Assembly (NCBI GenBank): GCA_029964075.1
Contig: CM057129.1
Coordinates: 11,089,430 to 11,153,429 of the forward strand
Origin: Patiria pectinifera
Lineage: Eukaryota > Echinodermata > Asteroidea > Valvatida > Asterinidae
DNA: 64,000 nt
Reading direction: 5' to 3'
Positions 438 through 56,413 of this stretch are shown piece after piece (positions within the stretch are counted from its first letter, which is position 1; each line of letters starts with the position of its first letter). Under the pieces are notes generated by a model. The model saw only the letters and a program-made list of their open reading frames with translations, had not been told where the DNA came from and did not search any database. Made by a program: the position numbers and the translations under genes.

Positions 438-704
438 CACTAACTGTGACGTAGGCTGAACTCTTTACGCTGCCTTCGGCGTTGCTTCCAATGCAGGTGT
501 ACTCCCCGGTATCCGCCTGGGTTACCGACTTGATCTGGAGCCCGTCTTTGCGCAGGTTGTAATGGTCTCCGGACTGGACAGCATTGCCGTCCTTTTCCCA
601 AGTCACGACGGGATTGTGGGTTCCCATGACTTCGCATTGGAGGACTATAGTTTCGCCAGTAGACAGTGTATGGTTAGACGGTACTGTCTTGAAAACCGGA
701 GGCC
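438..704 (-). CDS. Coding exon 28: Ig domain 4, last exon in window
   Basis: Residues 1758-1846; 267 nt, phase 1-1. [45 protein letters not shown] and AYVTVSG. Acceptor CATTTTCAG. The donor GTAAGA in phase 1 shows the message continues to the left of base 1. Confidence 0.93.

Positions 705-56413: not shown

Follow-up and report, generated by a model that had tools for sequence, protein, structure and literature searches.

The window analysed here, a stretch of 64,000 bases containing zero N, was located by genome search at C1:11089430-11153429 of an assembly of 613.5 Mb in 1,020 contigs. It carries a minus-strand gene of 28 exons, running from 56413 to 438 and all in one frame; with exon 29, which lies to the left of base 1, the full product has 1,935 aa. 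In the 28-exon model, GT is present at 28/28 donors and AG at 27/27 acceptors, and 27/27 junctions are phase-compatible. Translation of exons 1-28 to base 438 gives 1,836 residues without a stop. The parts of the gene inside the window are as follows.

Exon 1, 56341..56413, minus strand: ATG at 56413 and signal peptide of 24 residues (hydrophobic leader read from the translation, predicted by eye); ends in phase 1, AAG/gtaggt
Exon 2, 52149..52362, minus strand: FU repeat 1 (block 1); Pfam Furin-like_2 sub-threshold, loose cysteine motif
Exons 3-4, 48066-47882 and 47727-47572, minus strand: end of FU block 1 and SRCR1; Pfam and cysteine count
Exon 5, 46477..46892, minus strand: end of SRCR1, FU2-FU3 and start of SRCR2, uninterrupted; unique in the genome at near-identity
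Exons 6-7, 45255-45120 and 44183-44046, minus strand: remainder of SRCR2; Pfam and cysteine count
Exons 8-10, 37154-37003, 29263-29111 and 25187-24999, minus strand: FU4-FU6 (triple block); Furin-like_2 in 3 stretches, 3.5e-12
Exons 11-13, 21819-21685, 21237-21150 and 17039-16860, minus strand: end of FU block 3 and SRCR3; Pfam and cysteine count
Exon 14, 14534..14833, minus strand: FU7-FU8; cysteine motif
Exons 15-16, 13878-13662 and 13069-12945, minus strand: end of FU block 4 and SRCR4; cysteine count
Exons 17-18, 12402-12153 and 11650-11476, minus strand: end of SRCR4, FU9-FU10 and start of SRCR5; cysteine motif
Exon 19, 10291..10598, minus strand: body of SRCR5 and start of FU block 6; search of SRCR5 for structure relatives
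Exon 20, 9109..9368, minus strand: FU11-FU12, a pair resembling R-spondin-2; R-spondin-2 match
Exons 21-22, 8323-8142 and 6336-6135, minus strand: end of FU block 6 and SRCR6; cysteine count
Exon 23, 5441..5623, minus strand: final cysteine of SRCR6 and putative EGF-like linker; sub-threshold EGF_3
Exons 24-25, 4787-4485 and 3344-3078, minus strand: Ig1 and Ig2; Pfam I-set
Exons 26-27, 2468-2321 and 1815-1688, minus strand: Ig3; Pfam I-set
Exon 28, 438..683, minus strand: Ig4; Pfam I-set

Most exons were recovered by a search combining codon scores and splice sites, trained on obvious cysteine-rich frames. Exon 1 was set by reading the sequence, the donor score decided where exon 9 ends, and small exons that the automatic chain placed into long introns were dropped from the final model. 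Because the splice sites were picked to fit, their phase agreement has no weight as independent proof, and independent support for the gene model comes from a second copy (see below). This copy covers exons 9-29 only; for exons 1-8 the model is based on domain matches, borders within exons and splice signals. Comparison of the exon and domain tables places 10/12 borders between FU, SRCR and EGF-like parts inside a single exon, including 6/6 borders from FU to SRCR (exons 3, 5, 11, 15, 18, 21) and 4/6 borders leaving an SRCR (exons 5, 17, 19, 23). Since these borders fall inside exons, the FU-SRCR alternation is nearly independent of the chosen splicing.

A tblastn search of the 28 exon peptides against the window outside the model, done for paralogous exons hidden in introns, gave weak matches only (lowest E 0.083). 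All nine plus-strand gene candidates in the window scoring over 12 (9/9) overlap exons of the receptor gene. Rfam returned 0 matches, and NCBIfam 3, all far below cut-offs. A repeat of 16 bases, GTCGGACTTATGAGGC, lies in intron 6 just past exon 6, in this and the reverse-complement orientation (44866-45033, 44696-44739, 44792-44840). Upstream of the gene, positions 61191-63962 of the window are taken up by satellite-like arrays whose repeat unit measures about 187-210 bases, and also 378.

Domain content of the product

The product opens with a signal peptide and carries 12 FU repeats, grouped 1-2-3-2-2-2, with each block preceding one of the six SRCR domains (SRCR1 to SRCR6); the EGF-like linker follows, and then four Ig domains of the I-set type. 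The original prediction had read the same alternation, followed by four Ig domains in an unbroken frame; its order and end coordinates (56413 and 438) were reproduced, and Pfam and cysteine motifs agree with it. The layout stood; the predicted length of 1,846 residues had to be corrected, the product to base 438 being 1,836 aa long.

Pfam was run on the product in three pieces, with significance set at E 0.001. The profile search proposed with the prediction returned SRCR (PF00530) in six stretches, four in one piece (4.2e-113) and two in another (5.9e-53), with whole-protein scores above the cut-off, and I-set in four stretches (2.3e-72). FU was detected through Furin-like_2, above the cut-off in both N-terminal pieces (1.1e-20 and 2.3e-11). 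The loose cysteine motif counts 12 FU cores and the strict one 11. There are 18 cysteines in each of FU blocks 2, 4, 5 and 6, and 28 in block 3. Six cysteines are present in 6/6 SRCR domains, which share 41-53% pairwise identity. The SRCR superfamily is marked by significant PF00530 matches and six or eight patterned cysteines; with PF00530 in six stretches at E 0.001 or better and six cysteines in each, the domains belong to it; we take these six-cysteine SRCRs to be group A-like.

Two of the predicted parts are present in the model at sub-threshold Pfam scores, namely FU block 1 alone (E 0.0075) and the linker (EGF_3, E 0.038, 14.7 bits vs a cut-off of 28.5), whose EGF-like nature is only suggested. 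Cysteine counts are odd in the same two places, 11 in FU block 1 (exon 2, 52362-52149) and 7 in the linker (exon 23, 5623-5441). Reading through the exon 23 donor would add an eighth linker cysteine, but it meets a stop codon in the second copy; the read-through was rejected, and the donor at 5441 is supported.

Residues that could coordinate cations in the SRCR heads were mapped by motif spacing. According to passages of PMC7043408, D1019, D1020 and E1086 of DMBT1 SRCR8 make up one cation site, D1020, D1058, D1059 and N1081 make up another, and a change of D1019 or D1020 abolished ligand binding. The first triad reads D-D-E in SRCR2, 4 and 5, N-D-E in SRCR1 and S-D-K in SRCR3, while SRCR6 has A-D and no acid; it is thus whole in 3/6 domains, partly changed in SRCR1 and mostly lost in SRCR3 and SRCR6. 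The second set reads D-D-D-N in SRCR1, D-D-N-N in SRCR3 and SRCR4, D-D-E-D in SRCR5, D-N-H-Q in SRCR2 and D-D-S-R in SRCR6. By analogy with DMBT1, several of the SRCR heads, not all, may bind anionic ligands through a divalent cation.

Gene end and second copy

Extension of the assembly to the left of base 1, also proposed with the prediction, completed the gene. From the 100 kb taken there, the nearest 11 kb were searched for exons able to follow exon 28, and two phase-compatible frames with a membrane-like stretch were found. The following was taken as the last exon.

Exon 29, 1,212-1,510 bases left of base 1, minus strand: predicted transmembrane helix, cytoplasmic tail and stop TAG; score 30.5

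It reads as a transmembrane segment, then RRRHKQQALFNHSRLNRSPKKSALGVIFTERTNGSSYVEIKKQKAKEEREMQEGIIEDVDIV, then TAG, with AATAAA farther downstream, and the cytoplasmic tail is 62 residues long; an alternative acceptor at -1218 would make the product two residues shorter. The other frame, -7208 to -7701, scored higher (34.1 vs 30.5), a point that counts against the gene end proposed here, yet it was rejected as a low-complexity repeat of GWLAGW type. Exon 29 is preferred because the second copy retains a 100% identical protein across it despite four base changes.

The suggestion of a signalling domain beyond base 1 was not borne out, and a membrane helix, the short tail and a stop were found instead. 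Neither comparison of the tail with domain profiles nor the exon search on the same strand found a kinase or other signalling domain left of base 1. The 62-aa tail, taking exon 29 as the last exon, has no kinase match of the kind that a receptor tyrosine kinase would show. Between exon 29 and the next gene at -10753, only low-complexity frames (-7230 to -7797) exceed the search score of 8; apart from these, the next same-strand exon above that score belongs to the collagen-C1q gene at -10753. Eight collagen-C1q genes or gene fragments, all on the minus strand, follow one another in tandem from there to about -93028; Pfam, run on one of the eight, gave C1q at 3e-19 and collagen at 1.4e-14. On the best reading, the gene ends at exon 29 with a transmembrane segment and a short tail, and its product is a predicted type I single-pass receptor of 1,935 aa.

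ITIM receptors of the inhibitory kind recruit SHP phosphatases, and the ITIM consensus is [SIVL]xYxx[ILV]. The lone tyrosine of the tail sits in SSYVEI, the single occurrence of this pattern in the motif search, and the C-terminus, DVDIV, fits a PDZ-ligand pattern. Both candidate motifs are short enough that they would often arise by chance (5-15% on a rough estimate). Besides the second copy, a genome search for paralogues of the tail returned only an unconvincing match on C14 (E 1.24, 32% identity).

The one other full match of exon 29 lies 278 kb off on the same contig, on the opposite strand. This second copy carries exons 9-29 in order and inverted (C1:11325792 to 11366999 or beyond), and blocks of more than 500 bases align between the copies at 89-97% identity, introns included. 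Comparison of exons 9-29 over 4,338 coding nt revealed 78 mismatches, no indel and no internal stop, and the AG/GT splice dinucleotides are retained. Exon 29 accounts for 4 of these mismatches. Values of dS 0.066 and dN 0.0049 give dN/dS 0.075, and the gene is, as judged from exons 9-29, under purifying selection.

Homology with the second copy begins at the first base past a 500-N scaffold gap (C1:11325292-11325791), and no match to exons 1-8 was found in the 30 kb preceding its start. Because the homology starts exactly at the gap, the simplest reading is that the second copy is probably the other allele, left unmerged and placed backwards by scaffolding; a real truncated or partial duplicate is a less simple explanation. 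Whether allele or duplicate, exons 9-29 are unbroken in both copies; selection has preserved the stretch of protein that they encode, along with an exon structure that extends from FU across the Ig exons into the tail.

The same comparison bears on the question whether two adjacent genes, one FU-SRCR and one Ig-transmembrane, were joined by error. The joint between the EGF-like part and Ig does depend on one splice (intron 23, 653 nt). However, the last cysteine of SRCR6 is encoded at the start of exon 23, which exits in phase 1 into Ig exon 24, reading through the exon 23 donor hits the stop noted above, and exons, phase and splice sites are retained in both copies. We consider such a join scarcely credible, and the single gene of the original prediction is upheld, with exon 23 joining the end of SRCR6 to the first Ig exon.

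Copy number and the SRCR repertoire

Exon 5, which joins FU and SRCR sequences, is matched at near-identity nowhere else in the assembly. A search with its protein gave 13 matches, 11 in the gene or its second copy and 2 in other FU stretches (C1:7.31 Mb and C8:12.53 Mb); by eye, these 3.2 kb loci show FU arrays and no SRCR. As a control, the search recovered 7/9 of the gene's own FU-bearing exons (2, 5, 8, 9, 14, 17, 20; missed 10 and 18), and it would therefore be expected to reveal any paralogue of similar age. A genome scan with the FU profile of Pfam gave 4 matches at three loci (exon 5, C9 and C1:7.33 Mb) and found only 1/9 of the gene's own FU-bearing exons; with such insensitivity, its silence elsewhere says little. 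From the exon 5 search, the FU-SRCR fusion appears to occur once in the genome, and the gene is apparently single-copy.

SRCR domains themselves are abundant, with 1,208 candidate stretches in the 613.5 Mb, of which 150 were scored and 150/150 exceed the cut-off. Single-exon SRCR clusters were seen on contigs such as C3, C4, C6, C10, C14, C17 and C21; the one on C10 has nine copies spaced about 3.1 kb, with two nearly fixed scores alternating. Passages of PMC5119243 give 218 SRCR sequences in sea urchin and 270 in amphioxus vs 16 genes in humans, and the candidate count here would recall those SRCR-rich animals rather than a vertebrate. In each of the best 8 other SRCR exons the domain is complete within that exon, and the eight fall into two groups of near copies, one well supported and one drawn open. 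In the SRCR tree, the six SRCRs of the receptor are divergent, on long branches and split over exons. They form one clade in 20% of 200 bootstrap trees, with SRCR1 and SRCR6 flagged as long branches meeting, and the branches are too long to decide whether the six are a single clade.

Abundance of this kind invites the reading that the gene encodes a diversifying innate immune pattern-recognition receptor of an expanded SRCR set, whose many heads would bind microbes. SRCR families are described, in passages of PMC10855680 and PMC2575513, as enlarged and partly immune in sea urchin, amphioxus and sponge; the large candidate set and the tandem collagen-C1q array adjoining the gene also fit such a role. 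Set against it are the absence of a second near-identical match to exon 5, the dN/dS of 0.075 and the contrast between the near copies among the best 8 other SRCR exons and the divergent, split domains of the receptor. Single copy and low dN/dS together make a diversifying immune molecule less likely, and we judge it rather improbable. Of the predicted immune or adhesion receptor, the membrane receptor stands, while a diversifying immune molecule has lost ground.

Relation to known receptors and proposed working

Several SRCRs per ectodomain, with the SRCR fold by sequence, are likewise found in the multi-SRCR scavenger receptors (CD163, CD5, CD6; SR-I class) and in DMBT1. Solved relatives of SRCR5, the only SRCR searched, include CD163, CD5L, CD6, LOXL2 and DMBT1, among others. 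In comparison with CD163, CD5, CD6 and DMBT1, the receptor retains part of the cation-site residues; unlike them, it has FU between its SRCRs, an EGF-like linker and four Ig domains, and its SRCRs are multi-exon. SRCR is the sole type of extracellular domain in the SR-I class, and the FU and Ig parts place the product outside it.

FU arrays are carried by PCSK5/6 and FRAS1-type proteins, and R-spondin is a secreted protein with two FU repeats and a TSP1 domain. The paired FU repeats of the receptor resemble those of R-spondins, and the solved relative of FU block 6 (FU11-12), the only block searched, is R-spondin-2 (4e-05). Unlike R-spondin, PCSK5/6 and FRAS1, the receptor has no convertase or TSP1 match, alternates FU with SRCR and is predicted to be membrane-anchored; 12 FU repeats, a transmembrane helix and the lack of a TSP1 match set it apart from R-spondin in particular. 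The FU pairs might act in an R-spondin-like manner in Wnt signalling, with ZNRF3/RNF43- or LGR-type proteins as their binding partners and with the SRCR heads and Ig stalk positioning the complex, an idea that we hold to be very unlikely. If it were true, the receptor would be a membrane-bound, multivalent functional cousin of R-spondin.

Receptors of Robo/DSCAM type have an ectodomain of Ig and FN3, and Robo, DSCAM and contactin share with the receptor a tandem of I-set Ig domains beside the membrane. It differs from them in its short tail, SRCR-FU N-terminus and lack of an FN3 match. A cell-cell adhesion or guidance receptor in which the Ig repeats do the main work, with the FU-SRCR array as a long extension, would accord with the best structural matches of the Ig block (Robo1, DSCAM, titin and contactin, 4.4e-63 to 1.8e-58), with the short tail and its PDZ-like end, and with a gene that is constrained and apparently single-copy. 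The product nevertheless shows four I-set stretches and no FN3 match at E 0.001, and the I-set matches are generic, titin ranking alongside Robo, so the likeness to Robo falls short of membership. We regard this role as possible, although doubtful.

Combinations of SRCR with other domains have been described elsewhere. Passages of PMC5119243 list predicted cnidarian proteins with SRCR, multiple Ig and trypsin; unlike the receptor, these end in trypsin, and the word "furin" is absent from the main text of that paper. Among sponge SRCR proteins, 14 carry a kinase domain (PK_Tyr_Ser-Thr; passages of PMC10855680), which puts SRCR on a possible signalling receptor, while no kinase was found in the receptor studied here. 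Further passages report SRCR with varied partner domains in amphioxus (PMC2575513), adhesion GPCRs of amphioxus that contain SRCR (PMC2246102) and a ctenophore in which SRCR enters into many combinations (PMC11797021). FU together with SRCR and Ig is absent from the passages of these five papers (PMC5119243, PMC10855680, PMC2575513, PMC2246102 and PMC11797021), and titles and abstract openings from the literature searches do not name such a layout. The layout had been predicted to be unusual, and it was indeed not met in the literature searched. Because multidomain proteins of separate origin can give a false impression of kinship when they share mobile domains, as stated in a passage of PMC3927612, no family is assigned beyond the SRCR superfamily. 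The building blocks are familiar; their FU-SRCR-Ig architecture appears new for a known kind of receptor and is absent from the literature searched.

The reading that we favour, and consider fairly probable, is a single gene for a type I single-pass receptor with FU spacers, partly cation-binding SRCR heads, an Ig stalk and a partner-recruiting tail. Its layout consists of a single FU with an SRCR, five further units in which two or three FU repeats precede an SRCR, the linker, four Ig domains, the helix and the tail. FU repeats would serve as disulphide-held spacers keeping the six SRCR heads apart, and some of these heads may bind anionic ligands through divalent-cation sites. The Ig repeats could form a stalk or touch neighbouring molecules, and the tail, having no recognised enzymatic domain, would signal only by recruiting partners through SSYVEI and DVDIV. 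Several points weigh against this proposal: two of the six heads (3 and 6) lost most of the first cation site, both tail motifs are possibly due to chance, and the odd cysteine counts fit it poorly. Purifying selection and the apparent single copy make a conserved ligand likelier than a changing set of pathogens.

The layout by itself overturns nothing. A wealth of SRCR domains in an animal genome is often taken to mean a reservoir of rapidly changing immune receptors. This receptor gene, apparently single-copy and strongly constrained, with a regular FU-SRCR alternation fused to an Ig receptor body, seems to be the reverse. Should it have orthologues, it would offer a tractable test of the roles that SRCR arrays play beyond immunity, as well as a clear example of exon shuffling that joined three types of module.
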